Below, in pieces: positions 2,095 to 30,543 of a stretch of 37,923 nt of DNA. The first letter of the stretch is position 1. The number at the start of each line of letters is the position of its first letter. The notes below the pieces were generated by a model that saw only the letters and a list, made by a program, of their open reading frames with translations, searched no databases and had not been told where the DNA came from. The DNA lies in the IMG/VR virus record IMGVR_UViG_3300008952_003571, positions 1 through 37,923 of that record. One strand, given 5' to 3'. The stretch comes from a virus. The position numbers were made by a program, and so were the translations under genes.

Positions 2095-2334
2095 ATGGCT
2101 GATTGGTCAGCAATAAGTAAAATAATACTTTACATTTGCGCAACAGTGGTTATAATATTTACAACTCATTCGTGTGAGTTGCGTACTCAAATTATACAAG
2201 AGTGTGAACAGTCATGCTCTGGAATGGGCAATCGGATACTTTCTGTTACGAATCGCGAATGCATATGCACCGGTGCCACAGTTACTGAAAGCAAACAAAA
2301 CGATGAAATTTGGTTAATCCCTAGGAATGAATAA
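2095..2334 (+). CDS. Small membrane-anchored cysteine-rich protein
   Basis: A 79-residue protein starting at ATG 2095 behind CGAGGA. A hydrophobic segment (KIILYICATVVIIFTTHSC, about residues 9-27) is followed by a domain with regularly placed cysteines (C27, then QECEQSC and ECICTG) that could form disulfides outside the cytoplasm. The segment could be a signal anchor or an imperfect lipoprotein signal ending at C27. It ends in a TAATG overlap with the phosphomannomutase-like gene. No family recognised. Confidence 0.6.
   Translation: MADWSAISKIILYICATVVIIFTTHSCELRTQIIQECEQSCSGMGNRILSVTNRECICTGATVTESKQNDEIWLIPRNE
2129..2156 (+). promoter_or_regulatory. Possible internal sigma-70 promoter
   Basis: TTTACA at 2129-2134 and TATAAT at 2151-2156 are separated by 16 bases, matching the bacterial housekeeping promoter at 11 of 12 positions. 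It lies inside the small cysteine-rich gene and would start transcription near 2163, ahead of the phosphomannomutase-like and nucleotidyltransferase genes. In AT-rich DNA such matches also occur by chance. Confidence 0.3.
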
Positions 2335-3137
2335 TGACCCCACCTAACACGATAGTCTTGTTTGACGTTGACGGCACTCTAACCGAGGCGCGCCTACCGA
2401 TATCCATTTCCGTTATTATCGCATTGAGAGAGTTATGTCGCTATACTGAAATTGGCTTTGTGACAGGAAGTGGGATGGAATATATAAAAGAACAATTGTG
2501 GCCGGCATTAAATGACCCTATTATTCGCAACAATTGCCACTTGCTTCCGTGCAACGGAACTGAATATTGTATTCCTGTCGGAGAAGAAGGGCTTTCGTTT
2601 CAGACCATTCACAAAGCATCGATGATTGAAGAGATAGGAGAAAAAGACTTTTATAAATTAATGAGAATTCTGTGTCGTCTTCAAGGAGAGGTAGTAGAAG
2701 AAGGATATGGGTTGCCTATTACAGGCAACATGTTCCACAATCGCGCTTCAATGATAAACTGGTGCCCAATTGGCAGGAACGCGAAGCCTCCGGAGCGCGA
2801 ACAATTTAAAGCGCTCGATAAGCTTTATGGTATTCGCAAAAAGTATATTGAAACTTTAAAAGAGAATTGTAAAAAAGAAGGAATAGGTGTTAATATTAAA
2901 TTGGGAGGAGATACGTCTTTCGATATATATCCTCCGGGCTGGGACAAAACATATGCCTTAAAACATTTTAATAAACACGAATGGGATTTTTGGTTTGTAG
3001 GAGATCGCTGCAGCCCTACGGGAAATGATTATGAGATTTTTAACTTTCTTCATAGAAAGGGTCGCGCCTTTGAAACAAGCGGACCAGGAGAAACAGTTGA
3101 GATAATTGATTTTTATATTTTAAACGAGGTAATATAA
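2334..3137 (+). CDS. Eukaryotic-type phosphomannomutase-like HAD enzyme
   Basis: A 267-residue HAD-superfamily protein resembling the alpha-phosphomannomutases (PMM1/PMM2 family), which interconvert mannose-6-phosphate and mannose-1-phosphate. Visible hallmarks are the nucleophile motif DVDGTLT (D11, D13) with a following arginine, NWCPIGRNA near residue 143, the substrate-loop signature GGDTSFDIYPPGWDKTYAL near residues 188-206, and the metal-binding loop VGDRCSPTGNDYEIF near residues 221-235. Its length is close to the usual 245-260. Product mannose-1-phosphate would feed GDP-mannose and then Gmd and Fcl encoded about 26 kb downstream. This type is rarer in bacteria than the ManB/AlgC type. 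A sugar-phosphate phosphatase is the alternative, but the motif set favours PMM. Confidence 0.8.
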   Translation: MTPPNTIVLFDVDGTLTEARLPISISVIIALRELCRYTEIGFVTGSGMEYIKEQLWPALNDPIIRNNCHLLPCNGTEYCIPVGEEGLSFQTIHKASMIEEIGEKDFYKLMRILCRLQGEVVEEGYGLPITGNMFHNRASMINWCPIGRNAKPPEREQFKALDKLYGIRKKYIETLKENCKKEGIGVNIKLGGDTSFDIYPPGWDKTYALKHFNKHEWDFWFVGDRCSPTGNDYEIFNFLHRKGRAFETSGPGETVEIIDFYILNEVI

Positions 3138-10643: not shown

Positions 10644-11491
10644 AGTTTATTTTTGTGGCTGATTTCTTTGTCGAGCATATGCTCACCAAAGGGGTCATAG
10701 GGGGAGGAGAGCTTAATAATGAAGAGTGTATACGGTTATTAATTTCTCAAAAACATTCAGTAAGCAAAATGTTGTGCCACCAAATTACTCCTTCCTTTAT
10801 TAACGACAATAAAGATAGTAACTTTATTATCGCTAATTTTGTAAAGCTACACCCAGCTTGTATGGAGGCTCTCTCTCAAACAAACTATGTCATATACGAA
10901 CATGATCACAAATATCTTCAAGCGCGCAATCCAGCGCTTTATGAAAATTTTAAAGCCCCCAAAGAAGATATTGTAAATTTAGAATTTTATAAAAATGCGA
11001 GAGCGGTGTTATGTCAGTCACAATTTCATATGGGCATTGTTGAAAAAAACACCGGTTTAACAAATATAATCAATTTGGGTGGTAATTTGTGGCCCATTTC
11101 TTCTCTTAAGTTAGTTGAAGAAATTTCTAAAAAACAAAAGCATAAGAAATGCTCTATTTTGGATTCCCGAGAGCCTCATAAAAACACTCAAGAAGCAATT
11201 AAGTGGTGTTTGATAAATGATATGAAATTTGATTTAATTCGTAATCCGATTTATGCCGAATTTTTGTCTGCTTTGGGAACTAATGAAAAGTTTGTATTTC
11301 TTCCAAAAACTCCGGAGACGCTTTCGAGAGTGGCTGTAGAAGCGCGAATGATGAACATGTCATTGATTACCAACAATATGGTAGGCGCCTCCATGGAGCC
11401 ATGGTTTAAACTGAAAGGAAAAGAGCTTATAGAAGTTGTTTATAAAATGAGAGAAACTATTCCCGCCAAAGTGGTAGAGGCATTTAAATGA
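10640..11491 (+). CDS. Divergent GT-B glycosyltransferase
   Basis: A 283-residue protein beginning at GTG 10640, overlapping the preceding stop as GTGA, with AGGAAA just upstream. It resembles a group 1 glycosyltransferase: N-terminal KFIFVADFF, GGELNNEE where acceptor-binding loops sit, ILDSREPHKNTQEAI (the K-N-T of phosphate contacts) and a C-terminal VAVEARMMNMSLITN segment in place of the classic EGFGL-E motif. It is shorter than GT4 enzymes. It may have lost or changed the sugar-donor motif, so activity is less certain than for its neighbours. Confidence 0.65.
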   Translation: MKFIFVADFFVEHMLTKGVIGGGELNNEECIRLLISQKHSVSKMLCHQITPSFINDNKDSNFIIANFVKLHPACMEALSQTNYVIYEHDHKYLQARNPALYENFKAPKEDIVNLEFYKNARAVLCQSQFHMGIVEKNTGLTNIINLGGNLWPISSLKLVEEISKKQKHKKCSILDSREPHKNTQEAIKWCLINDMKFDLIRNPIYAEFLSALGTNEKFVFLPKTPETLSRVAVEARMMNMSLITNNMVGASMEPWFKLKGKELIEVVYKMRETIPAKVVEAFK

Positions 11492-12216
11492 AAACACTAT
11501 TGCTATCTTATCCACGTAGTGGAAACTCTTGGTGTCGTTATATATTGGAATCTATAACAGGGCGCCCCACCACCGGCTTCCCTCTCTTGCACCCATGGAC
11601 AGGAAACGTTAACTCACATTATTTTGGTAATGACGAATTTGATGACGACGTTATTCTTAAGCTTCATGGAGACCCAACGGAATTGTACAGGGATCGTGCA
11701 GCGCTGCTTGGGGGTCGGACTTCCTTAATTGAAAAATACCTTAACAAAGAATATGCTTTAATACTTTTGATAAGAGATCCGGTAGAAGCCATAACTCGGC
11801 ATGAGGGACACAATCCAGGTTGCCCCATAAGATCACGCGTACGGGACCCGAATTATTATTATTTTAAAAATATTAAATTATTTGATTCTTATAATGGTTT
11901 GAAAATAGCTGTATATTATGAAGATTTAATTCAAAATCCGAAGGTGTTTATAAGAAAACTAGGAGCATTTATGGGCGTAGAAAATTATGATCAAAAGGTA
12001 GAAAGTTTTATGGACAATTTTGAACCTCATAGAGAAACATCAAGACAATTATATAGTGCCAACGTCCAGAAGACACAAACCAACGGAAAGCCCGACAGCA
12101 TTAAATTCCACAGTAGCAATTATTCTCAAAATTATTTAAAAGCACAATGGGAGAAAATAACCCAATATCAAGATCCGGACGTATTGAAATACATAGAAAG
12201 ATATAAAGTATCATGA
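11488..12216 (+). CDS. Sulfotransferase
   Basis: A 242-residue sulfotransferase-family protein that would transfer sulfate from PAPS to a hydroxyl. The 5'-phosphosulfate-binding loop is YPRSGNSW at residues 8-15. The 3'-phosphate region is LLIRDPVEAI near residues 94-103. VYYEDLIQNP near residue 148 is the conserved stretch preceding the dimer/PAPS region. Length fits small carbohydrate sulfotransferases. It is linked by ATGA overlaps to glycosyltransferase genes, so the acceptor is presumably the same glycan. No PAPS synthesis gene is present, so host PAPS is implied. Confidence 0.82.
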   Translation: MKTLLLSYPRSGNSWCRYILESITGRPTTGFPLLHPWTGNVNSHYFGNDEFDDDVILKLHGDPTELYRDRAALLGGRTSLIEKYLNKEYALILLIRDPVEAITRHEGHNPGCPIRSRVRDPNYYYFKNIKLFDSYNGLKIAVYYEDLIQNPKVFIRKLGAFMGVENYDQKVESFMDNFEPHRETSRQLYSANVQKTQTNGKPDSIKFHSSNYSQNYLKAQWEKITQYQDPDVLKYIERYKVS

Positions 12217-14158: not shown

Positions 14159-14899
14159 ATGAATAATTTAAAAATGTCTGCTATTATACCTTGTTATAAT
14201 GCTGAAAAATGGATTGATGAATGTTTAAGGAGCGCTCTAATCCAAACATATGAAAATATGGAAGTTATTTTTGTTGATAACGAGAGCACGGACGATAGCT
14301 ATCAAATAGCAAAAAATGTACAGAAGGAATATCCCGAATTAAAAATATCATCCGCGCCAAACATATATCGATATTCTTGGACCGAACCAGTTGAAGAAGC
14401 CTTGACGATGGCAACGGGAGATTATTTTACAATAGTTGGCGCTGATGATTATCTAAAAGAATGTTATATTGAAAATGTAATGAAGATAGTTTCTACAAAC
14501 CCAGATAAAATCAAGTTATTGCAATCTCCGATTAAAGGCGTTAAAGGAGATAAAGAGCAATTTTTGGAAGAAATAAGGCATTCCTATAAAAATTTGGATG
14601 AATTTAAAAGACTATTGTTTGAAAAGTGTCCCGTAACAACCCCCACAATGGTTTATAAAAAAGAATTACACGATAAAGGAATTATTCGCTGGAATTCAAA
14701 AGAGTGTTTAGGCGCCGCCGATTATGATTTATATTTTAATATAGCGGATCACGGATTATTCATATATCCCTATCCAAATTGGATTGGATATTTCTACAGA
14801 TGGCATGAAGGACAAGCTACATGGGGAATGCACAAAGAAGCCACAAGCTATGATCAATTAATAAAAGAACGATGGTATAAAAGGTGGCTCAATGAATGA
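14159..14899 (+). CDS. Family 2 glycosyltransferase
   Basis: A 246-residue GT-A enzyme of family GT2. Hallmarks are the opening MSAIIPCYNAEKWIDECLRS, then VIFVDNESTDDS with the first aspartates, and GADDYL near residues 97-102 as the DxD-like metal site. Length fits the minimal GT2 catalytic domain, with no membrane segment. Likely an inverting transferase acting on the same glycan. AAGAAGAAAAA precedes the ATG. Its end overlaps the TPP-enzyme gene by 8 bases. Confidence 0.88.
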   Translation: MNNLKMSAIIPCYNAEKWIDECLRSALIQTYENMEVIFVDNESTDDSYQIAKNVQKEYPELKISSAPNIYRYSWTEPVEEALTMATGDYFTIVGADDYLKECYIENVMKIVSTNPDKIKLLQSPIKGVKGDKEQFLEEIRHSYKNLDEFKRLLFEKCPVTTPTMVYKKELHDKGIIRWNSKECLGAADYDLYFNIADHGLFIYPYPNWIGYFYRWHEGQATWGMHKEATSYDQLIKERWYKRWLNE

Positions 14900-16679
14900 A
14901 AAGATTAGAGTAGTTGATTATATAGCAAATAGGATTTCTGAGTTAGGAGTCGAACACATTTTTACATTAACCGGCGGCGGCGCGATGTTTTTAAATGATT
15001 GTGTTGCTAAGCATGATAAACTTAAAGCAGTTTGCAGCCATCACGAACAGGCGTCAGCCATGGCAGCCGTAGCATATGCTAAGTATACCAATAATTTTTC
15101 AGTTACGATGCCAACTACCGGATGTGGTAGCACGAATTGTATAACTGGACTTTTAGATGCGTGGCAAGATAACGTTCCATGTATTTTCATCTCTGGGCAA
15201 GTTAATAAAATGCAAACATGTTATAATTCAAAAGCTAAAATAAGACAATTTGGCGTTCAAGAAGCAAACATTGTAGAGCTTGTTAAACCAATTACAAAAT
15301 ATGCCGTGATGATTAATGAGCCTGAAGAAATAGGCTATCATTTTGATAAGGCGATATATCATGCTAGTGAAGGCAGAAAAGGTCCAGTATGGATTGACAT
15401 TCCATTAGATGTCCAGGGCGCCTTCATTGAGCCTTCTAAATTAAAGAGATTTGTGGTTGAAGAAAAAAAGGTTATTTGCGAATTAACACAATTTGAAATG
15501 CTTCTTGAAAGCTCTCAACGGCCTGTCATTTTGGCCGGAAATGGTGTGAGATTGGCTAATGGCGCAGAAGCATTACAAAAGTTTGCAGAAAAACATAATA
15601 TACCAGTTGTAACTACTTTTCTAGGTGTTGACTTAATGCCCTCCGAACATAATTTAAATATAGGACGCGTCGGCATCAAGGGTGGTCGAGCCGCAAACTT
15701 TGCAATGCAAAATTCTGATATGTTGTTATCGATAGGAACACGCTTAAGCGTCCCATCGACTGGCTATAAATATGAATATTTTGCTAGAGAAGCTAAAATT
15801 GTAGTTGTGGATATAGATCCAGAAGAACATAACAAAAATACGGTTAAAATTGATTTATTTTTAGAAATGGATGCTAAGGATTTTATGGACAAAACAGAAT
15901 TTGAACATAGAAGTAGCGATTGGTGGTCTGATACTTGTTTAAAGTGGAAGAATAAATGGCCAGTATTTTTACCAGAGCATGAAGACGATAGTAATGGAAT
16001 CAGTTTGTATTATTTCATGAAAAGGCTATCAGAATCGTTGGATTCGGAATCCGTTGTTGTGGGAGACGCTGGTTCCGCTTATTATGTTCCATCACAAGCG
16101 TTGCAAATTAAAGATCAACAAAGGCATATTACGTCCGGAGCACAAGCGGAAATGGGATTTACAATTCCTGCATGCATTGGAATTGCATTTGCTATGAAAG
16201 ATCCAAAAGTAGTAGGAATCACCGGAGACGGATCCTTTCAAACCAACATACAAGAATTACAAACGATTGTTCATTATGGTCTTCCAATTAAATTATTTAT
16301 TTGGAATAATGATGGTTATTTGTCAATAAGAACTACACAAAAGAAGTATTTTGAAGGAAGATTTATAGGGACAGATAAAAACGACGGAGTTTCATTTCCA
16401 GATACAGAAAAAATAGCAAATGCTTACGGTATAAAATATTTTTTATTTTCAAATAATGAAGAACTTGATGCCAATTTACGCAAAGCAATTGAATTTGATG
16501 GGCCAGCTATTTGTGAGGTAATGTGTAAAAAGTGGGATCAAGTACTCCCAACTTTAAGTGCGAAGAAATTAGATGATGGTAGGATGATTTCCAAACCATT
16601 AGAAGATATGTATCCTTTCTTGACACGAAAGGAATTTTATGATAATATGATAATAAATCCATTGGAGGAAAAAGAATAA
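14892..16679 (+). CDS. Acetolactate-synthase-like TPP enzyme (YerE-like candidate)
   Basis: A 595-residue thiamine-diphosphate enzyme. The catalytic glutamate is E52 (HHEQASAMAA). The TPP motif begins GDGSFQTN near residue 445 and ends in IWNNDGYLSI about 28 residues later. The central domain (residues 190-330) is the FAD/binding fold of acetolactate synthases. The C-terminal extension ends with LPTLSAKKLDDGRM and PLEDMYPFL, typical of versions found in sugar clusters. Known relatives include biosynthetic acetolactate synthase and YerE, which adds a two-carbon unit from pyruvate to a CDP-3,6-dideoxy-4-ketohexose. The RfbH-type gene three places downstream favours the YerE-like role; the adjacent PanB allows an acetolactate role. 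No small regulatory subunit is seen. Confidence 0.82.
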   Translation: MNEKIRVVDYIANRISELGVEHIFTLTGGGAMFLNDCVAKHDKLKAVCSHHEQASAMAAVAYAKYTNNFSVTMPTTGCGSTNCITGLLDAWQDNVPCIFISGQVNKMQTCYNSKAKIRQFGVQEANIVELVKPITKYAVMINEPEEIGYHFDKAIYHASEGRKGPVWIDIPLDVQGAFIEPSKLKRFVVEEKKVICELTQFEMLLESSQRPVILAGNGVRLANGAEALQKFAEKHNIPVVTTFLGVDLMPSEHNLNIGRVGIKGGRAANFAMQNSDMLLSIGTRLSVPSTGYKYEYFAREAKIVVVDIDPEEHNKNTVKIDLFLEMDAKDFMDKTEFEHRSSDWWSDTCLKWKNKWPVFLPEHEDDSNGISLYYFMKRLSESLDSESVVVGDAGSAYYVPSQALQIKDQQRHITSGAQAEMGFTIPACIGIAFAMKDPKVVGITGDGSFQTNIQELQTIVHYGLPIKLFIWNNDGYLSIRTTQKKYFEGRFIGTDKNDGVSFPDTEKIANAYGIKYFLFSNNEELDANLRKAIEFDGPAICEVMCKKWDQVLPTLSAKKLDDGRMISKPLEDMYPFLTRKEFYDNMIINPLEEKE

Positions 16680-16680
16680 C

Positions 16681-17613
16681 ATGAGTGCAAATGATATAAA
16701 CAAGGTCACAGTTTTGAGATTAAGGAGGCACAAGAGAGAAAAGATTAAGACAGTTTTAACTACTGCTTATGATTATCCACAAGCTAGAATAGCTGATGGT
16801 GCCGGTGTTGATTGTATTTTGGTTGGCGATTCTTTAGGAATGACAACTTTAGGTTATAAAACAACAATACCTGTAACAATGGACGACATGATAAGACATT
16901 CGGAGGCAGTAGCCAAAGGTGCAAAACATGCTTTTCTTATTGGAGATATGCCTTATATGTCATATCAGATTTCGAATGAAGACGCTATCGCGAATGCTGG
17001 GCGATTTGTAAGAGCCGGCATGGATTGTGTTAAAGTCGAAGGTGCGATGACAGAGCGGATTAAAGCAATTGCCGATAGTGGAATTATGGTCATGAGCCAT
17101 CTTGGCTTAACTCCCCACACTAGAGCAAAGTTGGGGGGATATCGCGTACAAGGAAAGACCGCAAAGCAAGCAGAAATTATACTCAAACAGGCAATTGATC
17201 TTCAAGAGGCTGGTTGTTCGTTTTTGTTATTAGAAGGCATGCCCCGAGAGTCTGCGCAGATTATTTCAGACGAGCTTTTAATTCCTGTTTATGGAATTGG
17301 CGCCGGCAATAAAGTAGACGGACAGTTGGTTATTTTCCATGATTTGATGGGGTTATTTTGGGAATTTAAGTCTAAGTTTGTTAAGCGATATTGTGAAGCC
17401 GGCCAAATTATGCAGGAGGCACTAAAGCAATATGCCGACGAAGTAAGAGCGGGACAATTTCCAGCACAAGAAAATTTTTATGCTATTAAAGAAGAAGAAT
17501 TAGAAAAGCTTTTGGGAGGAGGCAATTGGAAGCACGAGATCATTTATGAAAACGATCAAGGATTTCCAACCAACCATAGTGCCACTCCAAACACTATTAC
17601 GCGAAAAAAATAA
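16681..17613 (+). CDS. panB: Ketopantoate hydroxymethyltransferase (PanB)
   Basis: A 310-residue PanB homologue. PanB transfers a hydroxymethyl group from methylene-tetrahydrofolate to 2-ketoisovalerate, the first step of pantothenate synthesis. Conserved sites are all visible: VGDSLGM with D50, IGDMPYMSY with D89, VKVEGA with K118 and E120, HLGLTPH with H140, LLEGMPRESA with E185, then YGIGAGNKVDGQ. The usual family length is about 265; the extra residues are a C-terminal extension (LEKLLGGGNWKHEI onward). It begins 1 base after the TPP-enzyme gene. PanC and PanD are absent, so either it supplements the host or it makes a hydroxymethylated group for the glycan. A phosphoenolpyruvate-mutase relative is the main alternative, but the motif set fits PanB. 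Confidence 0.9.
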   Translation: MSANDINKVTVLRLRRHKREKIKTVLTTAYDYPQARIADGAGVDCILVGDSLGMTTLGYKTTIPVTMDDMIRHSEAVAKGAKHAFLIGDMPYMSYQISNEDAIANAGRFVRAGMDCVKVEGAMTERIKAIADSGIMVMSHLGLTPHTRAKLGGYRVQGKTAKQAEIILKQAIDLQEAGCSFLLLEGMPRESAQIISDELLIPVYGIGAGNKVDGQLVIFHDLMGLFWEFKSKFVKRYCEAGQIMQEALKQYADEVRAGQFPAQENFYAIKEEELEKLLGGGNWKHEIIYENDQGFPTNHSATPNTITRKK

Positions 17614-17621
17614 TCACATTT

Positions 17622-18422
17622 ATGAATATTTTGATTACCGGTAGAAACGGCTTTATTGGCAAAGAACTAACAGAATTTTTTACCAAAACGGACCATACTG
17701 TATTTGCCACATGTAGGAAAACCCTAGATGTGTCAGATGAACGCCAAGTAGATGATTTTTTTAAGAAAAACAATATTGATGTAGTCTTGCATGCTGCGAT
17801 TAGAGGGGGCGGCCGCACAAATAATGATACCTATTGCGATTTGGTGAAAAACTTAAACATGTTTAAAAATTTATTAAAACACCATAAGCGTTATAAGCTG
17901 ATGATTTCGTTTGGTTCGGGGGCAGAAACAAACAACACAACCTACTATGGGGCAGCCAAAAATCTAATTGCGCAAGAAATAACAAAACATGATGGAAACA
18001 TTGTCAATTTGAGATTATTCGGCTGTTTCGGTCCACAAGAAAGAAGTAACAGGTTCATTAAAAATTCAATCAACAGTCTTCTGTTAAATAATCCAATTAT
18101 TATTCATCAAGATAAGTATATGGATTATTTTTATATCGATGATTTAAAAAAAGTTGTTCAACATTACATCGAAAACTACACAGATGCGTTACCCAAAGAG
18201 ATAGATTTGTGCTATTCCACTAAATTGAGGTTATTGGATATAGCTGAAGAAATAAAAACCTTGACATCACGTGAGGTGAATGTTATAATTGAAGATAAAA
18301 CACAAGGCTCTTCCTATATTGGAAGCTCGTTTAAGTTAGCCGATTTAAATCTCAAATTGGGGGGCTTAAATGAGGGGATTCAAAAAATGTTTAAAGTGTT
18401 AGAGGCAACACACAATGGATAA
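17622..18422 (+). CDS. Extended SDR: NDP-sugar epimerase/4-ketoreductase
   Basis: A 266-residue NAD(P)-dependent extended short-chain dehydrogenase. The cofactor loop is TGRNGFIG at residues 6-13. Catalytic tyrosine and lysine lie in YYGAAK near residue 107. LRLFGCFGPQE and KYMDYFYIDDL follow. Size and position fit a 4-ketoreductase that finishes a deoxysugar, by analogy with abequose or yersiniose (YerF) pathways next to RfbH enzymes. Sequence alone cannot separate reductase from epimerase. It overlaps the RfbH-type gene by 8 bases, and a perfect promoter lies inside its 3' part. Confidence 0.8.
   Translation: MNILITGRNGFIGKELTEFFTKTDHTVFATCRKTLDVSDERQVDDFFKKNNIDVVLHAAIRGGGRTNNDTYCDLVKNLNMFKNLLKHHKRYKLMISFGSGAETNNTTYYGAAKNLIAQEITKHDGNIVNLRLFGCFGPQERSNRFIKNSINSLLLNNPIIIHQDKYMDYFYIDDLKKVVQHYIENYTDALPKEIDLCYSTKLRLLDIAEEIKTLTSREVNVIIEDKTQGSSYIGSSFKLADLNLKLGGLNEGIQKMFKVLEATHNG
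18261..18289 (+). promoter_or_regulatory. Perfect consensus sigma-70 promoter inside a gene
   Basis: TTGACA at 18261-18266, 17 bases, TATAAT at 18284-18289: 12 of 12 consensus positions with optimal spacing. It lies within the SDR gene, and the predicted start near 18296 is about 119 bases ahead of the RfbH-type gene. It would give that gene and the following dehydratase an expression route independent of the upstream operon. Confidence 0.65.
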
Positions 18423-19755
18423 GAAACAAGAAATTTTAAATTTAGTAAAGGAATATATTGAAGAAAAGAGGGCAAACGAAACCTGGGATGCCGGGAGCGA
18501 TTGGGTGTCCTATTCTGGACCAACGTTTGACTCTGCAGAATATGTTGCAGCAATAGAGTCGCTATTAAGCGAATGGCTTATTTATGGAAAGACCGGTAGA
18601 AACTTTGAAATGGAATTTCCTCAATTTTTAGGAAAAAAACGTGGAATCTTAACCAACTCTGGAAGTTCCGCTAATCTTCTTATGATTACTGCGGCCAAGT
18701 CTAAACGCTTCGCCAAACAACTGAACGACGGCGACAAAGTCATTACACCGGTAGTGTGTTTCCCTACCACAATCAACCCGATCATTCAGAATAATTTAAC
18801 ACCGATTTTCGTAGATGTAGAATTGCCAAGTTTAAACTTAGATTTGGATAAAGTAGAGGAGCTTTTGAAGGTAGATCCTTCTATTCGTGGGATTATGTTT
18901 GCGCATGTTTTGGGCAACCCTCCTGACATGGAGCGCTTAATGAAATTGATTAAGAAGTATGATTTAGTCTTTTTTGAAGACGCGTGTGATGCTTTGGGAT
19001 CGTTTTATGATGGCAAAAAATTAGGATCTTTTGGAGACATGTCGACCTGTTCCTTTTTTCCAGCGCATCATATGACCATCGGAGAGGGTGGTTTCGTTGC
19101 AACGGACAGTCAACTAACGCGCAGTATTTTAGCTAGTTTCCGAGATTGGGGAAGAGCCTGTTACTGTAATTCTCTCAAACCTGGAAACGTAACAGGCGGT
19201 ACTGCCTGCGGTATGAGGTTTAATAAGTGGCTTCCTGGAATGCCAGATGCGATCTACGATCACCGTTACGTCTTTGATGAGATTGGATACAACCTAAAAC
19301 CGCTCGACTTACAGGCTGCAATGGGCTTAGAACAGCTTAAAAAATTGCCGGAGTTGGATAGCGCTCGTAGAAAAAACTGGGAGCGTCTGCGAGCTATTTT
19401 CGAGCCGTATGAAGAATATTTTCATTTACCGGTCGCAACCCCCAAAGCCGATCCGTGTTGGTTTGCGTTTTTGTTGACGATTAAGAAAGATGCGCCTTTT
19501 ACGCGTTTTGATATTGTAGATCATCTCGAGTCAGCTAAGATTCAAACTCGATCTTATTTTTCCGGAAACATTTTGGCCCATCCGGGATATACCCACTTGG
19601 CTTACCCTTATGGCAATTTATATGAAACATTTCCCGTGGCACAATTGGTAACCACTCGTTCGTTTTTCTTAGGGACATATATTGGATTAACTGAGGAAAA
19701 ATTGAGCTATATCGAGAAGATGGTTAATGGTTTTTTCGAGGACCTTAAAGTATGA
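18415..19755 (+). CDS. rfbH: RfbH-type NDP-4-keto-6-deoxyhexose 3-dehydrase (E1)
   Basis: A 446-residue member of the DegT/DnrJ/EryC1 fold. In SFFPAHHMTIGEGG the usual PLP lysine is replaced by histidine (H219), the hallmark of PMP-dependent E1 dehydrases that remove the 3-hydroxyl of a 4-keto-6-deoxyhexose. Cysteines C191 (DACDALGS), C249 and C251 (RACYC) and C265 (TACGMRF) match the [2Fe-2S] site of CDP-4-keto-6-deoxyglucose dehydrase, separating it from cluster-free ColD. Length is close to RfbH/AscC (about 437). The partner reductase E3 is not in the window. With the SDR and TPP enzyme next to it, the likely product line is a 3,6-dideoxyhexose or a branched derivative. Confidence 0.88.
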   Translation: MDKKQEILNLVKEYIEEKRANETWDAGSDWVSYSGPTFDSAEYVAAIESLLSEWLIYGKTGRNFEMEFPQFLGKKRGILTNSGSSANLLMITAAKSKRFAKQLNDGDKVITPVVCFPTTINPIIQNNLTPIFVDVELPSLNLDLDKVEELLKVDPSIRGIMFAHVLGNPPDMERLMKLIKKYDLVFFEDACDALGSFYDGKKLGSFGDMSTCSFFPAHHMTIGEGGFVATDSQLTRSILASFRDWGRACYCNSLKPGNVTGGTACGMRFNKWLPGMPDAIYDHRYVFDEIGYNLKPLDLQAAMGLEQLKKLPELDSARRKNWERLRAIFEPYEEYFHLPVATPKADPCWFAFLLTIKKDAPFTRFDIVDHLESAKIQTRSYFSGNILAHPGYTHLAYPYGNLYETFPVAQLVTTRSFFLGTYIGLTEEKLSYIEKMVNGFFEDLKV

Positions 19756-20702
19756 AAATAGTCTATATTACGGGTTGTTTGGGATTTATGGGCTCTTACG
19801 CGACCCGTCGAGCATTAGAGCGCGGTTGGATGGTGCGAGGGATTGATAAAATCACCTATGCTGCTAATGTGCAACTCTTAAATGAATTTAATCAATATCC
19901 TAATTTCATTTTTGAGAAAGAAGACATTAAGGATTTAAACCACTTGTATGATTGTGACTATGTCATCAACTATGCTGCAGAATCTCATGTGGGAAATAGT
20001 ATCGTTGACAGTCGCGACTTTATTGATAGTAATGTGATGGGGGTTAAAAATCTATTAGATTTGATTAGATTCAAACAAAGTAATTGTAATGATAAACCAA
20101 TATTGCTACACGTAAGCACAGATGAGGTTTATGGCGATATAGAAGACGGCGCCCATGTTGAAGCCGATTTACTTAAACCTAGTAATCCATATTCTGCCGC
20201 AAAAGCTGCAGCAGATATGTTGATTTTTGCGTGGGCTCGAACGTATGACCTTCGTTATAATATTTTACGTCCCACTAACAACTATGGCATAGGGCAATAT
20301 CCTGAAAAGCTTATTCCTTTATCTGTTAAAAATCTTATGCGAGGCAAGAAAATAAGGCTTCATAACAATGGCACTCCGGTTCGCAATTGGCTTCACGCTG
20401 ATGATACCGCCGCCGCCATCATGACAATTATAGATTCTGGTATAACAAATGAAATTTATAATATTGCCGGTGGCTACGAACAAACGAATGCCGAAACGGT
20501 ACGTAAAATTATTGAAGCATTCTACGATACCGATGAAAAATGGATGCAACACATTGACATGTCTTTTGCGCGAGAAGGTCAAGATGTTCGCTATGCTTTA
20601 AATGATAATAAGTTACGAGAATTAGGCTGGAAACCTGAACGAGTGTTTGACACAGAGTTGTCGTCTATTGTACACTATTATAAAGAGAAATTCATATGGT
20701 AG
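19752..20702 (+). CDS. rfbB: NDP-glucose 4,6-dehydratase (RmlB/RfbB-like)
   Basis: A 316-residue extended SDR resembling dTDP-glucose 4,6-dehydratase. The NAD loop is TGCLGFMGS at residues 7-15. The catalytic motif STDEVYGD is near residue 123 with the acid/base D-E pair. YSAAKAAAD supplies Y and K near residue 148, followed by RPTNNYGIGQYPEKLIP, typical of RmlB. It would form the 4-keto-6-deoxy intermediate used by the RfbH-type enzyme, with which it overlaps by ATGA. RfbH enzymes classically take CDP-sugars while RmlB takes dTDP-glucose, so the nucleotide is uncertain. No matching NDP-glucose synthase is in the window. Confidence 0.85.
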   Translation: MKIVYITGCLGFMGSYATRRALERGWMVRGIDKITYAANVQLLNEFNQYPNFIFEKEDIKDLNHLYDCDYVINYAAESHVGNSIVDSRDFIDSNVMGVKNLLDLIRFKQSNCNDKPILLHVSTDEVYGDIEDGAHVEADLLKPSNPYSAAKAAADMLIFAWARTYDLRYNILRPTNNYGIGQYPEKLIPLSVKNLMRGKKIRLHNNGTPVRNWLHADDTAAAIMTIIDSGITNEIYNIAGGYEQTNAETVRKIIEAFYDTDEKWMQHIDMSFAREGQDVRYALNDNKLRELGWKPERVFDTELSSIVHYYKEKFIW

Positions 20703-21559
20703 ACAATAGAGAAGTAATGAGAAAATTTATAGAAGAAAACTATAATGCGACATTTTTGCCTAATGCGCACCTTGTTGGTGCCGAAGAACAACAAATGTTT
20801 AAAGACGATTTGTTAAAGGGATTAGATAAGCTTTATGGCTTAAAAGACAGTCGCATCGGAGAGCCTGCGCTAGTGATGGGATTGGGCCCAAGCCTTTTAG
20901 AAGTAGATAAAGAAAAATACAAAGATGCGATTAAAATCACATGCAACGATTTTCACAAAGTTCCCAATCTATACACAGACTTTAAACCAGATTTTTGGTG
21001 CGCAGCCAATTCTTATGACGCATTAAAAGAAGCTTTCGGGTACTGTATAGACAACGACATCAAAGCCTTTGTCACGATTCCGATTCGAACAGAGTTTTCA
21101 CAGTTGCTAAAAATATCCAGAGAAAAAAACAAAATGGATCTTGTGTACCCTTGGATGTGGGAGCAACGCGTGTTTCAAGGGCTGTTGGCACAAAAATATA
21201 GCATTAAAGAAATGTATTCTCGCTGTAACACGATTACAAATCACATGATTGCTTTTGCACTATGGCTGGGTTGTAATCCCATAAATGTTACAGGGTTCGA
21301 TTTATCTTATAGACAAGCATTAAATAAAACAGGTATGACTCATGCTGGGTTTACTGAAGAAAGAATGCAAAACGACACATTATCTGGAAAGCGAGAGTTA
21401 CCTTCCTTTGATATTCCTTCCGAACGAAGGCAAGTTATAGGCGACTTGCGATATTTGTGCGCCGTAGGAAAAAAGTATAATGTAAAGATTAATAATTTAT
21501 CATGGAAGGCGAATCGGTTGCCTTATAACTTGTCATACTCTTTAGACGAAAAGGAATAA
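20696..21559 (+). CDS. DUF115/Maf-like protein, candidate nonulosonate transferase
   Basis: A 287-residue protein with PALVMGLGPSLLEVDKEKY near residues 57-75, the G-x-GPSL signature of DUF115 (MptE-like) domains. It has CNDFHKVPNLYTDFKPDFW and WLGCNPINVTGFDL, the fold elements shared with Maf proteins and GT42 sialyltransferases. In Campylobacterota, Maf proteins transfer pseudaminic or legionaminic acid to flagellin. Lying just upstream of NeuB and NeuA homologues, this one is a good candidate for the transferase of the acid made next door. It overlaps the dehydratase gene by 7 bases. The activity is inferred from family and context only. Confidence 0.68.
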   Translation: MVDNREVMRKFIEENYNATFLPNAHLVGAEEQQMFKDDLLKGLDKLYGLKDSRIGEPALVMGLGPSLLEVDKEKYKDAIKITCNDFHKVPNLYTDFKPDFWCAANSYDALKEAFGYCIDNDIKAFVTIPIRTEFSQLLKISREKNKMDLVYPWMWEQRVFQGLLAQKYSIKEMYSRCNTITNHMIAFALWLGCNPINVTGFDLSYRQALNKTGMTHAGFTEERMQNDTLSGKRELPSFDIPSERRQVIGDLRYLCAVGKKYNVKINNLSWKANRLPYNLSYSLDEKE

Positions 21560-21722: not shown

Positions 21723-22559
21723 TTGTCTAGAATATATATTATAGCTGAAATCGGCATCAACCATAACGGTAATGTTGATTTAGCTGAAGAACTTATAAGG
21801 ATATCTGCAGCGGCCGGAGCCGACGCAGTTAAATTTCAAAAAAGAACTCTTGACTTGGTCTACACTCAAGCAGAGCTTGAAAAATATCGTGAATCCCCAT
21901 GGGGCACCACAAATCGCCAACAAAAAGAAGGTTTAGAACTTGACATAGCAGATTACAGGAAACTTGAGGATTGTGCAAGCTTTCTTGGTATGGATTTTAT
22001 TGTTTCGTGTTGGGACCTAAACAGTCTGGCAGAAGTAGAAAAGAGCTTAAATACGAGTCATCATAAAGTTGCTTCTGCTTTGTCCACAGACAGAAAATTT
22101 TTACAAGCGCTTAACGAAACTGGTAAACCTATCATTCTTTCTACGGGAATGTGCACATCTGAGCAAATAGCAGCTTCTATTAATATATTAGACAATATAG
22201 ACTATGTGTTGGCATGCACGAGTACTTATCCAACAAAGCCTGAAGAAATCAATTTAAGGCACATTTCTACTTTAAAGAGAGAAAACCCGAATTTGAAGAT
22301 AGGATTCTCTAACCATTATAGCGGACACGATGCATGTGTAGGGGCTGTAGCCTGCGGCGCCGAATGTGTGGAATTTCACATAACAAAAGATAGGACGATG
22401 TACGGTTCCGATCAAGCCGCTTCGATTGAAAAACCAAAAGAATTAATTAGTGCCATCCGCACCATGGAAAAGATGCTCGGCAACGGCATAAAGAAGGTAT
22501 ACCCCTCTGAAGTCCCAGTAATGGAGAAATTAAGAAAGGTTGATGATGTTGCGCAATAA
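21723..22559 (+). CDS. neuB: NeuB-family nonulosonate synthase lacking the SAF domain
   Basis: A 278-residue synthase that would condense phosphoenolpyruvate with an amino-sugar to form a sialic-acid-like nine-carbon acid. The TIM-barrel hallmarks are AEIGINHNGN near residue 8, AGADAVKFQKR, HKVASALSTD, LSTGMCTSEQIA, GFSNHYSGHDACVGAVACGA and EFHITKDRTMYGSDQAAS near residue 221. Start is TTG 21723 with AAAGGAG 7 bases ahead. Typical NeuB proteins run to about 340-350 residues with a C-terminal antifreeze-like SAF domain; here the protein ends after the barrel at KLRKVDDVAQ. Either a naturally short subfamily or a deletion. A broken SDR fragment lies exactly at its 3' end. Confidence 0.87.
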   Translation: MSRIYIIAEIGINHNGNVDLAEELIRISAAAGADAVKFQKRTLDLVYTQAELEKYRESPWGTTNRQQKEGLELDIADYRKLEDCASFLGMDFIVSCWDLNSLAEVEKSLNTSHHKVASALSTDRKFLQALNETGKPIILSTGMCTSEQIAASINILDNIDYVLACTSTYPTKPEEINLRHISTLKRENPNLKIGFSNHYSGHDACVGAVACGAECVEFHITKDRTMYGSDQAASIEKPKELISAIRTMEKMLGNGIKKVYPSEVPVMEKLRKVDDVAQ

Positions 22560-22632
22560 AACTCTCAAAAGTAAAACTGTTTTAATAAGCGCCACCTCTC
22601 GAAGACTCGGAAAAGCTTTTTATAATGAATAA
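22546..22632 (+). pseudogene. Remnant of a short-chain dehydrogenase N-terminus
   Basis: A 28-codon frame overlapping the end of neuB by 14 bases and the start of neuA by 8. It reads LKSKTVLISATSRRLGKAFY, which aligns by eye with the beginning of an SDR (L-x-GK-x-V-L-I-T-G-A-S-R-G-L-G-K-A). The glycine pattern is damaged (ISATSRR for ITGASRG) and the frame stops at once. It looks like what remains of a deleted PtmA- or sugar-SDR gene. It may still be translated and couple neuB to neuA. Confidence 0.55.
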
Positions 22633-23308
22633 AAAAAAGATAGTTTGCCTAATTCCTGCCCGTGGAGGTAGCAAGGGTGTTCCAAAAAAGAATATAATTG
22701 ATTTTGGGGGCAAACCTTTAGTAGCCCATAGCATCGAACACGCAGTTGGATCCAAACATATTGATTTTGTGTATTTATCTTCGGATAGTGAAGAAATTTT
22801 AGAGATTGGCAAAACATATGGCGCAATACCGCTAATAAGATCACCAGAACTATCACACGACTACGCCACACTGGAAGCGCTGGTCAAAAACTTTTTAACA
22901 ATTACAAAAAACGTTGATATAATAGTGATGCTACAACCAACATCGCCCTTGCGTACTAGCCAAGATATAGACAATGCCATTGATGCGTTTTTTGAACAAG
23001 ACGTTGATTCTTTGTTTTCTGCCGTTGAGTTGGAAGATTTCTTTATCTGGAAGAGGGACACAAACGGGAGCCTCCAAAGTGTCAATTATGATTTTGAAAA
23101 CAGGCAACGAAGACAAGATATCAGTGGACAGGTTGTAGAAAATGGATCGATTTATATATTTAAACCCTCGGTTGTAATAGAAAACAATAATAGGCTTGGC
23201 GGAAAAATTGGTGTTTCTATTATGGATCCATGGAAAATACATGAAGTAGATTCATATGATGATTTAGAAATGTGTAGATTTGTTTATAACCAAAAGGTAT
23301 TAAAGTGA
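22625..23308 (+). CDS. neuA: NeuA/PtmB-like CMP-nonulosonate cytidylyltransferase
   Basis: A 227-residue nucleotidyltransferase that would activate the nonulosonate with CTP. The CTP-binding motif is IPARGGSKGVPKKNI near residues 7-21. Further hallmarks are YLSSDSEEI, LQPTSPLRT near residue 101, and ENGSIYIFKPS and DPWKIHEVDSYDDLE near the C-terminus. Length is typical of CMP-sialic, pseudaminic or legionaminic acid synthetases. Immediately downstream of neuB and followed by an aminotransferase gene with a 4-base GTGA-type overlap. Sequence does not tell which nonulosonate is activated. Some homologues (PtmE) use GTP on glucosamine-1-phosphate, a weaker alternative. Confidence 0.88.
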   Translation: MNKKKIVCLIPARGGSKGVPKKNIIDFGGKPLVAHSIEHAVGSKHIDFVYLSSDSEEILEIGKTYGAIPLIRSPELSHDYATLEALVKNFLTITKNVDIIVMLQPTSPLRTSQDIDNAIDAFFEQDVDSLFSAVELEDFFIWKRDTNGSLQSVNYDFENRQRRQDISGQVVENGSIYIFKPSVVIENNNRLGGKIGVSIMDPWKIHEVDSYDDLEMCRFVYNQKVLK

Positions 23309-27067: not shown

Positions 27068-27375
27068 TTTATTACGTTGACATAGATGAAACGATTTGTA
27101 GCTATCCAGAAGAACGGGCTTATGAAAAAGCAGTTCCGATTGTTGAAAATATCAGCAGGATCAATGCGCTATACGAAGAGGGTAATACGGTTGTATATTG
27201 GACGGCCCGAGGTGCTACTACCGGGATTGACTGGGCGGATATTACCCAAAAACAATTATCCCAATGGGGAGCAAAACATCACGAACTAAAAATGAATAAG
27301 CCACATTACGACTTGTTTATATGTGATAAAGCTATAAATTCATATGAGTATTTTAAAGGAGAGGCTAACAAATAA
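27064..27375 (+). CDS. HAD-family phosphatase-like protein
   Basis: A 103-residue small HAD protein. The nucleophile motif is YVDIDETIC with D6 and D8, and motif II is VVYWTARGA near residue 44. The C-terminal HYDLFICDKAIN could provide the motif IV aspartates. This size class is found in capsule and LPS clusters as a sugar-phosphate phosphatase. In the nonulosonate context it might dephosphorylate a NeuB product or intermediate, but a housekeeping nucleotidase is not excluded. Overlaps its neighbour by ATGA and ends one base into the next start. Confidence 0.75.
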   Translation: MIYYVDIDETICSYPEERAYEKAVPIVENISRINALYEEGNTVVYWTARGATTGIDWADITQKQLSQWGAKHHELKMNKPHYDLFICDKAINSYEYFKGEANK

Positions 27376-28655
27376 TGAAAGTATATAAAGACATTAACCA
27401 CTGCAGAGTATGTGGTTCTCCAGATCTAACAGAAGTGATAAGCGTTAAAGAGCAATATTTGTCTCCTAGGTTTGTTACGACAAATGAAAACAATTCTTTG
27501 GCAAACATCCGAGTGCCACAAACTCTTGTGGTGTGTGACCGAAGCAATAGACCCGACGCGTGTGGTTTGTTGCAACTTAGAGAGACCGTCGAGCCGGATT
27601 ATTTATATCGTGAATATTTTTATCGTTCTGGTGTGAGCGACACAATGCGCAAGGATTTAAAAAATGTCGTAGATACAGTTTTAAGCAAAGTCGTTCTCGA
27701 AGACGATAATGTGGTAGTTGATATCGGCGCCAATGATTGTACAATGATTAGTTATTTTCCTTCTAACTTAGTTCGCATTGGCGTGGAGCCGGCACAAAAT
27801 ATCGATTGGACAAATGTAGACTCCGACATTAAGATTGTAAATGATTATTTTTCCCAAAATTCATTAAGCGAAACATTACAAGGAAAAAAAGTCAAAATCT
27901 TTACTTCGTGTGCGATGTTTTATGATTTAGATGATCCAAATAGTTTTGTTGCTGATATTAAGTCGCTTCTTCATGAGAATGGAGTTTGGTGCATTCAATT
28001 AAGTTATTTACCCCTAATGCTAAAGAATATAAATTTTTATGATATTTGTAACGAACATCTAGAATATTATTCTTTGCATACATTAAATTATTTAATGAAG
28101 CAAAATGGATTAGAAATCTTTGATGCTGTTGAGAACGATGTTAATGGCGGAAGCGTACGCGTGATGATCACTCACCTTGAACGTAAAGTTGAAAAAACTG
28201 ATAGTTTTGATTCATTGATTGAGGAAGAGAAGCAGATGAACCTCTTTGATAAGCAAACGTATATTAATTTTCATGAAGAGATTTTAAAATTAAAAGATAA
28301 AATTAAAAACACAATTGGCGTAGAGATTAAAAACGGCAACACGGTGCTGGGATTAGGTGCTTCCACCAAAGGAAATATGCTTTTACAGTTGTTTGGGATT
28401 GGTAAAGAAACCATTCCATATATCAGTGAGCGCAATCCTGACAAAGTAGGGCTCAAAACCTTAGGAACTGACATTGAATTGATTTCGGAAGAAAAAGCAA
28501 GACAACTTAGCCCTAGTTATATGCTTGTTTTGCCCTGGTATTTTAAAGATGAAATTGTAATCAGAGAGCAAGAATATATTCAAAACGGAGGAAAATTGCT
28601 TTTCCCGATGCCATACCCTCATATTGTTCATAAAGATGGAGAAACAAAGTTATGA
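27375..28655 (+). CDS. Sugar C-methyltransferase-like protein
   Basis: A 426-residue protein with the three-part layout of TylC3/NovU-type sugar C-methyltransferases. An N-terminal zinc-binding domain holds HCRVCGSPDL and later VCDRSNRPDACGLLQ. A SAM domain has VVDIGANDCTMISYF near residue 117 and the HLEYYSLHTL stretch near residue 229. The C-terminal Methyltransf_14 domain has VLGLGASTKGNMLLQL near residue 323 and GKLLFPMPYPHI. Relatives methylate 3-position carbons of NDP-4-ketosugars or act on related sugars. It is preceded by AAAGGAG and overlaps Fcl by ATGA. Which 4-ketosugar it uses (GDP-linked or the dideoxy branch) is unknown. Confidence 0.85.
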   Translation: MKVYKDINHCRVCGSPDLTEVISVKEQYLSPRFVTTNENNSLANIRVPQTLVVCDRSNRPDACGLLQLRETVEPDYLYREYFYRSGVSDTMRKDLKNVVDTVLSKVVLEDDNVVVDIGANDCTMISYFPSNLVRIGVEPAQNIDWTNVDSDIKIVNDYFSQNSLSETLQGKKVKIFTSCAMFYDLDDPNSFVADIKSLLHENGVWCIQLSYLPLMLKNINFYDICNEHLEYYSLHTLNYLMKQNGLEIFDAVENDVNGGSVRVMITHLERKVEKTDSFDSLIEEEKQMNLFDKQTYINFHEEILKLKDKIKNTIGVEIKNGNTVLGLGASTKGNMLLQLFGIGKETIPYISERNPDKVGLKTLGTDIELISEEKARQLSPSYMLVLPWYFKDEIVIREQEYIQNGGKLLFPMPYPHIVHKDGETKL

Positions 28656-29548
28656 AAGTCGTTGTGACGGGCGGAACTGGCTTCGTTGGACAAAGGCTCA
28701 AAAAGATAAGACCAGATTGGATATATCTTTCATCGAAAGATTATGATTTAGTTTCCACTGAAGATTGTAAAAGAATGTATTGTGAATTACAACCCGATGC
28801 GGTTTTGCATATGGCAGGAAAGGTCGGCGGCATTGGCGCTAATGATGCACATCCGGCAGAATTTTATTATTTAAATACAATGATCAATACGAATGTTATT
28901 CATCAAGGCTACTTGCATGGAGTTAAAAGAATTTTAGCGACTTTAAGCACGTGTACATTCCCAGATGTGGTAGAGAATTATCCTTTGACCGAGAGTGATA
29001 TTTTATCTGGGCCACCAGCCAAGACTAACCTTTCTTATGGCTACGCTAAGCGTTCTTTGTATGTTCAAATAAATTCATATAGAAAACAATATGGAGTAAA
29101 TTATTCCACCTTTTGTCCTTCTAATCTCTACGGACCCGGTGACAATTTTGATTCATTAAGTTCACACTTTGTGGCAGCTTTGATATCTAAAATTGCTAAA
29201 GCAAAAGATGGAGACACAATAGAACTGTGGGGTACCGGCACACCTTTACGCCAACAACTATATGTTGATGATTTGTGTGAGATAATTCCGATGCTTTTGG
29301 AAAAGCACAATGGCGACGAACCATTGATTGTTGCCCCGAATGAAAACTTAAGCATTGATGAGATGACAGAGATATTAATATCCCAAGTACACAAAAATAT
29401 TGAAATTGTTTATAATAATAAATTGGATGGACAATTTCGAAAAGACGGGAGCAATAAGCGTCTGAAAGAAGTAATAGGAGACTATCATTTTACCACTTTC
29501 CAAGAGGGCGTTTTAAAAACATATGACAACTATAGAGAGAACCGATGA
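28652..29548 (+). CDS. fcl: GDP-L-fucose synthase (Fcl/WcaG-like)
   Basis: A 298-residue extended SDR. The NADP loop is TGGTGFVG at residues 7-14. [18 protein letters not shown] is a diagnostic stretch of GDP-fucose synthases. STCTFPD near residue 107 and YGYAK near residue 129 form the catalytic site, and [14 protein letters not shown] follows. It epimerises and reduces GDP-4-keto-6-deoxymannose to GDP-L-fucose. The gene is next to Gmd (ATGA overlap) in reversed pathway order. A branch to GDP-colitose or another 6-deoxyhexose remains possible, because an RfbH-type enzyme is in the same block. Confidence 0.9.
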
Positions 29549-30543
29549 CTGAAAAAAAGAAAACAGCACTTATAACCGGCATCACCGGTCAAGATGGCTC
29601 TTATTTAGCCGATTTTTTGTTACAAAAGGGTTATCACGTTGTAGGTATTAAGCGCCGCACGTCGCTGTTGTCAACTGATCGAATTGATCACATTTTTGAT
29701 GATCTGGAAAGCGTAATAAATTTTGACATGGCTTATGGCAATGTGATTGATGCAGGCAATATCTATAGATTATTACAAGAAACTCAGCCAGATGAAATTT
29801 ATAATTTAGCTGCGCAATCACACGTAAGGGTTTCGTTTGAAACTCCCGAAGAGACTGCAAAAATTGTTGCCATGGGAACCCTTCGGCTTTTAGAAGCTGT
29901 AAGAAACGTCTGCCCAAGTGCGAAATTTTATCAAGCTTCGTCATCTGAAATGTTTGGTGACAATCCTGAAAACCCTCAAAACGAAGATACGAGATTGCTG
30001 CCTGCAAGTCCGTATGCGTGTTCAAAAGTTTTTGCTCACCATCTTTGCAGAAATTATAGAGAAAGCTACAATTTGCATGCATCTAGTGGTATTTTATTTA
30101 ATCATGAATCTCCTCGAAGAGGTGAAACATTTGTGACTAGAAAGATTACTTTAGCGGCCGCCCGAATTAAAGCGGGGATCCAAGATAAACTTTATTTGGG
30201 AAACCTTGACGCTAAGCGCGACTGGGGCTTTGCCGGCGATTTCGTGGAAGCCATGTGGTTGATGTTGCAACAAGAGGAGCCGGATGATTATGTTATAGCC
30301 ACCGGCGAAACTCATACAGTTCGTGAATTTCTTGAGGAAGTTTTCGAAATTGCAGGATTAGACATCGAGAAGCACGTCGAAATTGATTCGAGACTATTTA
30401 GACCACATGAAGTTCCCTTACTTTTGGGAGATCCTACGAAAGCGAAAAAGAAACTCGGATGGGAACCCAAAGTCAAATTTAAACAATTAGCAAAAATGAT
30501 GTACGAAGAAGATCTTAAAGTGGCTTATCGCACACACATATAA
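29545..30543 (+). CDS. gmd: GDP-mannose 4,6-dehydratase (Gmd)
   Basis: A 332-residue dehydratase. The NADP loop is [12 protein letters not shown] at residues 11-22, characteristic of Gmd. [15 protein letters not shown] is the substrate/NADP-binding stretch. Catalytic SSSEMFGD is near residue 132, YACSK near residue 156, and [20 protein letters not shown] near residue 225 is diagnostic. It turns GDP-mannose into GDP-4-keto-6-deoxymannose for Fcl. The N-terminal [10 protein letters not shown] follows the ATGA overlap. Last gene of the glycan block. GDP-mannose pyrophosphorylase is not seen, so host GDP-mannose or a gene outside the window is needed. Confidence 0.95.

Follow-up and report, generated by a model that had tools for sequence, protein, structure and literature searches.

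Which sugar is made by the compact group of genes at positions 14159-21559 of the virus record IMGVR_UViG_3300008952_003571, and why does this group include a paralogue of PanB (ketopantoate hydroxymethyltransferase)? The window, i.e. the whole stretch of DNA analysed here, comprises 37,923 bases and coincides, at identical coordinates, with the first part of a 71 kb IMG/VR contig. An earlier note on this DNA had proposed that a thiamine diphosphate (ThDP)-dependent enzyme, a short-chain dehydrogenase/reductase (SDR), an RfbH-type dehydrase and an RmlB-like 4,6-dehydratase provide a route to a sugar with a two-carbon branch. All four genes were found where it had placed them, but a fifth, the PanB-like gene at 16681-17613 between the ThDP and SDR genes, had gone unmentioned. 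With a probability of roughly 0.6, the unit makes a C4-branched 3,6-dideoxyhexose with a three-carbon branch, whose donor is supplied by the PanB paralogue; the enzyme activities are predicted from sequence. The carbon branch appears to be the work of an enzyme that was taken over from the synthesis of vitamin B5.

The unit consists of seven genes on the plus strand, which overlap or are separated by gaps of at most 8 bases (-8, 1, 8, -8, -4 and -7 bases along the unit). Since the genes overlap or abut and the same arrangement was found again in dozens of viral contigs, it is not a product of chance.

The YerE-like carboligase

The ThDP-dependent carboligase (14892-16679, plus strand, 595 aa) has its best PDB match in JanthE, a YerE-like enzyme (8rph, 434 bits vs 266 for 5ahk and 236 for plant acetohydroxyacid synthase, AHAS). 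In the phylogenetic tree it was placed with JanthE and 5ahk, while E. coli IlvB, IlvI and plant AHAS were located across a branch with an SH-aLRT support of 99%. A topology that unites the window clade with AHAS was rejected by the approximately unbiased (AU) test (delta lnL 166, p-AU 0.00012). The tree took in JanthE and 5ahk without YerE and ErwE themselves, so the label 'YerE-like' rests on these two proteins and on gene context. The entry 5ahk, a YerE homologue, is annotated as acetolactate synthase II. The nearest NCBIfam models are acetolactate synthases, the cut-off of which is not reached (365 vs 538 bits).

The cofactor motif of the enzyme is GDG-ND, and a Thr is found at the site of AHAS Trp574, as is also the case in JanthE. 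This site is a weak class marker, since E. coli IlvB carries Gln there. Tree and AU test support the assignment of the protein as a predicted YerE-type carboligase, in line with the earlier note, and its exclusion from the acetolactate synthases. Of the two outcomes that the note had named as refuting its reading, neither the grouping with anabolic acetolactate synthases nor the loss of the cluster cysteines of the dehydrase (see below) was observed.

The PanB paralogue and its pairing with the ThDP gene

PanB hydroxymethylates a 2-oxoacid; with pyruvate as substrate this reaction would yield 4-hydroxy-2-oxobutanoate. The paralogue in the window (16681-17613, plus strand) exceeds the cut-offs of two NCBIfam PanB models (NF001452, 321 bits, cut-off 272; TIGR00222, 290 bits, cut-off 208), matches PanB in the PDB with 199 bits and yields a fold match with a TMt of 0.86-0.87. 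Residues Y25, D45, S46, D84, K112, E114, H136 and E181, which we take to be the catalytic or metal-binding residues of E. coli PanB, are retained and invariant. With these residues kept, the substrate is still likely an alpha-keto acid. Close to the active site, the combination of M183, Y/F200 and V213 is common to the phage clade, L005/L007, L079 and L080, and was found in none of 84 other PanBs. Judged from their nearness to E181, I202 and V214, the three residues may line the substrate pocket. As a proof of function this signature was discarded: the PanB of genome G220 does not carry it, while that of contig L078 does although no ThDP gene is adjacent.

Loci were gathered by a search with the window PanB (68 viral loci) and by a search with the ThDP enzyme (6 loci); after removal of repeat matches on one contig and with three cell contigs included, 73 loci were compared. 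The PanB and ThDP genes are at most 200 bp apart in 72 of these, and the pair is found starting from either gene. It is kept across different gene orders (ThDP-PanB-SDR or PanB-ThDP) and down to a ThDP protein identity of about 33%. In 40 loci, the SDR gene is located within 200 bp of the PanB gene. The one locus without the close PanB-ThDP pair is the Marinimicrobia contig L078, the phage-type PanB of which (72% identity) lies within a surface-polysaccharide cluster.

In the PanB tree, PanBs adjoining a ThDP gene occur at three places, namely in a large phage clade that includes Chloroflexi and Omnitrophota relatives, in the L005/L007 phages and in genome G220. To fit the strongly supported branches, the label 'beside ThDP gene' must have changed at least three times. 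These changes may be gains or losses; on the basis of the tree, PanB was likely recruited to ThDP genes repeatedly. The phage-type PanB is rare in cells: with the already known genome counted in each case, the L076 phylum yielded it in 2 of 386 genomes and the L077 class in 1 of 385. Four of five cell genomes with a phage-type PanB also hold a more canonical copy. The cultured phage collection yielded only distant acetolactate synthases and PanBs with at most 46% identity, and among the matches listed for the plasmid collection only acetolactate-synthase-like proteins (at most 33%) were present.

Contigs L014, L071 and L076 (a Prochlorococcus contig) feature transketolase-like genes after the PanB-ThDP pair, and no 3-dehydrase was seen there; in L014 and L071, dehydrogenase E1-like genes precede the pair. 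A different acceptor may be used in these three cases.

Probable donor synthases beside cellular relatives

A ThDP protein of the YerE-like type was detected in 23 of 398 Pseudomonadota genomes. Inspection of 19 cellular neighbourhoods (L196-L214), within a few genes and with a subset checked with Pfam, revealed an enzyme making 4-hydroxy-2-oxoacids near the YerE-like gene in 10 loci. These are MhpE with MhpF (L196, L197, L212), HpaI-like proteins (L197, L206) and NeuB-like proteins (L202, L204, L205, L208, L210, L213). The closest cellular relative of the window ThDP enzyme is encoded in L196 (55% identity) and nests inside the window's ThDP clade; this locus has MhpE and MhpF where the phage has PanB. 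Its MhpE scores 371 bits against the 4-hydroxy-2-oxovalerate aldolase equivalog (cut-off 286). Genome G220 (L220, 1-19501) combines in one cluster RfbG (CDP-glucose dehydratase), RfbH, an SDR, a ThDP-PanB pair, a third ThDP gene and an MhpF-MhpE-ThDP set, which suggests two differently branched sugars. The NeuB-like synthases at L202:6328-7833 and L213:6687-7775, one of which is fused to SAF and cupin domains, adjoin YerE-like ThDP genes and may make long 3-deoxy-2-oxoacid donors.

These partners agree in kind with the substrates of ErwE, a YerE-like enzyme that takes 4-hydroxy-2-oxobutanoate and longer donors and does not use pyruvate (PMC12247030). Formation of 4-hydroxy-2-oxobutanoate from formaldehyde and pyruvate is documented for pyruvate aldolases (PMC10992282). 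Judging by the near-invariant PanB partner in phages and by the 4-hydroxy-2-oxoacid aldolases that stand in for it in cells, the donor would be hydroxylated, with four or more carbons, and the branch would accordingly have three or more. The branch is therefore probably three carbons long and not two.

Dehydrase, dehydratase and reductase

The RfbH/E1-type 4-keto-6-deoxyhexose 3-dehydrase (18415-19755, plus strand) is encoded three genes downstream of the ThDP gene. It scores 471 bits with the NCBIfam model PRK15407 (cut-off 423) and 349 bits with the E1 dehydrase 3bcx, to which it aligns over its length. H218 replaces the lysine that binds pyridoxal phosphate (PLP) and aligns with H220 of E1. 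The earlier note had assigned this role to H219, but the alignment with 3bcx shows the latter to be the second His of 'HH'. Classing of DegT-family proteins by H219 was given up for the same reason; read at H218, apparent Q and V types turned out to have His. The four cysteines expected for a [2Fe-2S] cluster were recovered as C191, C249, C251 and C265 in the alignment with E1, with a six-residue insertion ahead of C265.

Among the loci with a PanB-ThDP pair, those of phages and two near-phage ones of cells contained 62 detected DegT-family proteins, all of which have His at the lysine site; on the stretch read of twelve loci, no such protein was seen. The substitution indicates sugar 3-dehydrases, and none of the proteins looks like an ordinary aminotransferase. 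The same method is able to recognise lysine-bearing aminotransferases, as it picked them up in L078 and L080. The 62 proteins comprise 38 of the E1 type with four cysteines, all of which keep H218 and the cysteines, and 24 without the cysteines. Among the latter, one example best matches ColD and another is closest to E1. The protein at L035:6100-7263 (similar in L037, L052, L055 and L070) is nearest to E1 by sequence without having the four cluster cysteines, and its gene is adjoined by an RmlB-like gene.

The putative NDP-glucose 4,6-dehydratase (19752-20702, plus strand) features the motifs TDE at position 123 and YSAAK at position 147. It scores 294 bits with TIGR01181, which is below the cut-off of 365, and the protein is thus designated only as RmlB-like; the CDP model gave 82 bits. 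Its PDB matches are dTDP-glucose dehydratases or putative ones, except for the weakest, and no CDP-glucose dehydratase was matched in the PDB at 1e-20. An RmlB-like gene is present in 30 of 38 loci with the E1 type, compared to 6 of 22 others (Fisher p = 0.0001, the contigs not being independent). The nucleotide is probably dTDP, which is favoured by the resemblance to dTDP-glucose dehydratases and by the co-occurrence with the E1 type.

A search for an NTP_transferase domain (RmlA/RfbF-type, CDP- or dTDP-glucose synthase), as the earlier note had asked for, yielded none in 14 related phage records, which span up to 194 kb and may be fragments. The same records lack a Fer2-domain protein, in line with the earlier remark that an E3 partner is not visible; a nearby E3 gene is common for E1 dehydrases, though it does not strictly define them. 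Sugar nucleotide and electrons would then come from the host.

The SDR (17622-18422, plus strand) is of the extended epimerase/reductase type and contains the motifs TGxxGxxG and YGAAK (YxxxK), with key positions invariant across 32 relatives. The folds nearest to its structural model (pLDDT 95.7) are those of GDP-fucose synthases and GDP-heptose C4 reductases, consistent with a ketoreductase for nucleotide sugars. The SDR is likely the reductase of the branch ketone, the completing role foreseen for it in the earlier note. Distant relatives (29-33%) occur in the cellular YerE-like loci L198, L206 and L220. The branch reductase of yersiniose was called uncharacterised in 2016 (PMC4753412).

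Proposed pathway and alternatives

Protein families, active-site residues, the pairing of genes, their phylogeny and the exchange of partners are established from the sequences. In the route that we infer, along with every substrate, the nucleotide, the branch length, the acceptor glycan and the purpose, the RmlB-like enzyme would convert dTDP-glucose, presumably of the host, to the 4-keto-6-deoxy sugar. The E1-type dehydrase would turn this into the 4-keto-3,6-dideoxy sugar with reducing power from the host. Pyruvate and the one-carbon unit of methylene-tetrahydrofolate would be joined by the PanB paralogue to give 4-hydroxy-2-oxobutanoate. The ThDP enzyme would decarboxylate this donor and add the 3-hydroxypropanoyl carbanion onto C4, leaving a tertiary alcohol. 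Reduction of the branch ketone by the SDR would then create a 1,3-dihydroxypropyl branch, and the neighbouring glycosyltransferase would transfer the branched sugar to a surface glycan. The sequence of a YerE-type carboligase acting after an RfbH-type 3-dehydrase and followed by SDR reduction, as outlined in the earlier note, is retained in this scheme, while the plain two-carbon branch from pyruvate finds no support in view of the PanB partner and the aldolases in cells.

We hold a broader claim to be a little better than an even bet: that the PanB paralogue is a dedicated donor synthase for YerE-like carboligases, that the resulting undescribed three-carbon-branched 3,6-dideoxy sugar is widespread in marine phages, and that branch length in this sugar class depends on which of several interchangeable 4-hydroxy-2-oxoacid synthases (PanB, MhpE/MhpF, HpaI or NeuB-like) accompanies a carboligase and a 3-dehydrase that are themselves conserved.

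Several observations weigh against the proposed route. No donor synthase was seen nearby in 9 of the 19 cellular YerE-like loci. JanthE accepts pyruvate as well as longer 2-oxoacids, and no report of a PanB acting on pyruvate was found in the literature searched. The residues M183, Y/F200 and V213 are not required, given that the PanB of G220 lacks them. No ThDP gene accompanies the phage-type PanB on the 21 kb read of Marinimicrobia L078, and the 72 of 73 paired loci were gathered by similarity to the window PanB, some contigs being near copies. An E3 or ferredoxin (Fer2 domain) was absent from the 71 kb parent contig and 13 other phage records.

One alternative is that PanB acts on 2-oxoisovalerate, as in vitamin synthesis, and that the 3-hydroxy-2,2-dimethylpropanoyl group of the resulting ketopantoate is what the ThDP enzyme passes on, giving a pantoyl-like branch. 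The wholly canonical catalytic residues, the score above the NCBIfam panB equivalog cut-off and the canonical side residues of the G220 PanB beside a ThDP gene are in its favour. However, the host has its own synthesis of ketopantoate, a quaternary carbon next to the reacting carbonyl should hinder ThDP chemistry, and the partner enzymes in cells yield 4-hydroxy-2-oxoacids without the dimethyl group. Together with the three changes near the active site of the phage clade, whose combination is confined as described above, these points make a ketopantoate donor unlikely.

A yersiniose-like two-carbon branch from pyruvate, with PanB serving another step or pantothenate supply, is likewise doubtful. 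It would agree with the use of pyruvate by YerE and its acceptance by JanthE as the nearest solved enzyme. It leaves unexplained, however, why PanB adjoins the ThDP gene almost without exception and was seemingly recruited more than once, and why the relatives in cells have other donor aldolases as partners; pantothenate synthetase (PanC) was not found in the 14 phage records.

PanB could also act after the ThDP enzyme, hydroxymethylating on the nucleotide sugar the methyl ketone of an acetyl branch derived from pyruvate. This order would lead to the same three-carbon branch and predict the same co-occurrence of genes, but we regard it as quite improbable, as the residues by which known PanBs bind the keto-acid carboxylate and the metal are invariant, and as the partners found in cells (MhpE, HpaI and NeuB-like) are synthases of free keto acids. 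An auxiliary metabolism for pantothenate or branched-chain amino acids, in which an acetolactate synthase and PanB feed coenzyme A synthesis, is very improbable despite the acetolactate synthase models nearest to the ThDP protein and a class IV aminotransferase about 6 kb downstream, because the protein scores far below the cut-offs of these models, tree and AU test reject a grouping with AHAS, PanC was not found in the 14 phage records and the genes accompany sugar 3-dehydrases.

If the proposed route is correct, an enzyme of primary metabolism has taken on the supply of donors for sugar branching, and the adjoining gene tells where the branch of a YerE-type sugar comes from. Structures would then be predictable for more than 200 YerE-like clusters, the sugars of which are mostly unknown (PMC12247030). 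Phages would be equipped to make surface sugars of a highly unusual kind, with which they perhaps alter host glycans or decorate virions, and the PanB type of this route is rare in the cell genomes sampled. The data suggest a new way of setting sugar branch length in nature.

Neighbouring genes

The first gene of the unit encodes a family 2 glycosyltransferase (14159-14899, plus strand, PF00535, 85 bits) and overlaps the ThDP gene by 8 bases; from its position, it is a candidate for transfer of the product. An MptE-like (DUF115-type) protein is encoded at 20696-21559 (plus strand, PF01973, 33.8 bits, cut-off 34.6). Its gene overlaps the RmlB-like gene by 7 bases and may be a member of the unit.

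NeuB-like and CMP-sugar cytidylyltransferase genes follow at 21723-23308, suggesting a nonulosonic acid within the same glycan. The region 27375-30543 features a sugar C-methyltransferase, a GDP-fucose-synthase-like SDR and a GDP-mannose 4,6-dehydratase (above cut-off), i.e. a second sugar route. A sulfotransferase-like gene (weak match) is located amid glycosyltransferases at 11488-12216, and a match to the eukaryotic phosphomannomutase family (PF03332, 123 bits), seemingly unusual for a phage, lies at 2334-3137.

Comparison with known systems

Phage PanB and E. coli PanB share the fold and all catalytic residues at 39% identity. The phage protein differs by an additional C-terminal tail of about 45 residues and by M183, Y200 and V213, where E. 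coli PanB has V, I and L. JanthE (Janthinobacterium sp. HH01) is the closest solved relative of the ThDP enzyme and shares its Thr at the AHAS Trp site, but its cofactor motif is CDG instead of the GDG of the phage enzyme, which in addition is partnered by PanB. The physiological substrates of JanthE are unknown (PMC12188165). ColD, a GDP-4-keto-6-deoxymannose 3-dehydratase, is the best match of at least one 3-dehydrase without Fe-S cluster in sister phage loci, in contrast to the window dehydrase, which is of the E1 type with a cluster.

With the yersiniose pathway of Yersinia pseudotuberculosis (RfbF/G/H, E3 and YerE), the phage unit shares a YerE-type carboligase predicted to act on an E1-made 4-keto-3,6-dideoxy sugar. 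It differs in the added PanB donor synthase, in a dehydratase that is RmlB-like and not of the CDP type, in its phage carrier and in that E3 and a sugar nucleotidyltransferase were not found in the phage records. The donor of erwiniose is presumably 4-hydroxy-2-oxopentanoate, judging from its chemical name; the predicted PanB product, 4-hydroxy-2-oxobutanoate, would be one carbon shorter. The erwiniose pathway of Pectobacterium atrosepticum otherwise has a YerE-like enzyme (ErwE), 4-hydroxy-2-oxoacids and a 4-keto-3,6-dideoxy sugar in common with the phage unit (PMC12247030). Judged by its genes, the module would work like the yersiniose and erwiniose routes, with an unusual enzyme making the donor.

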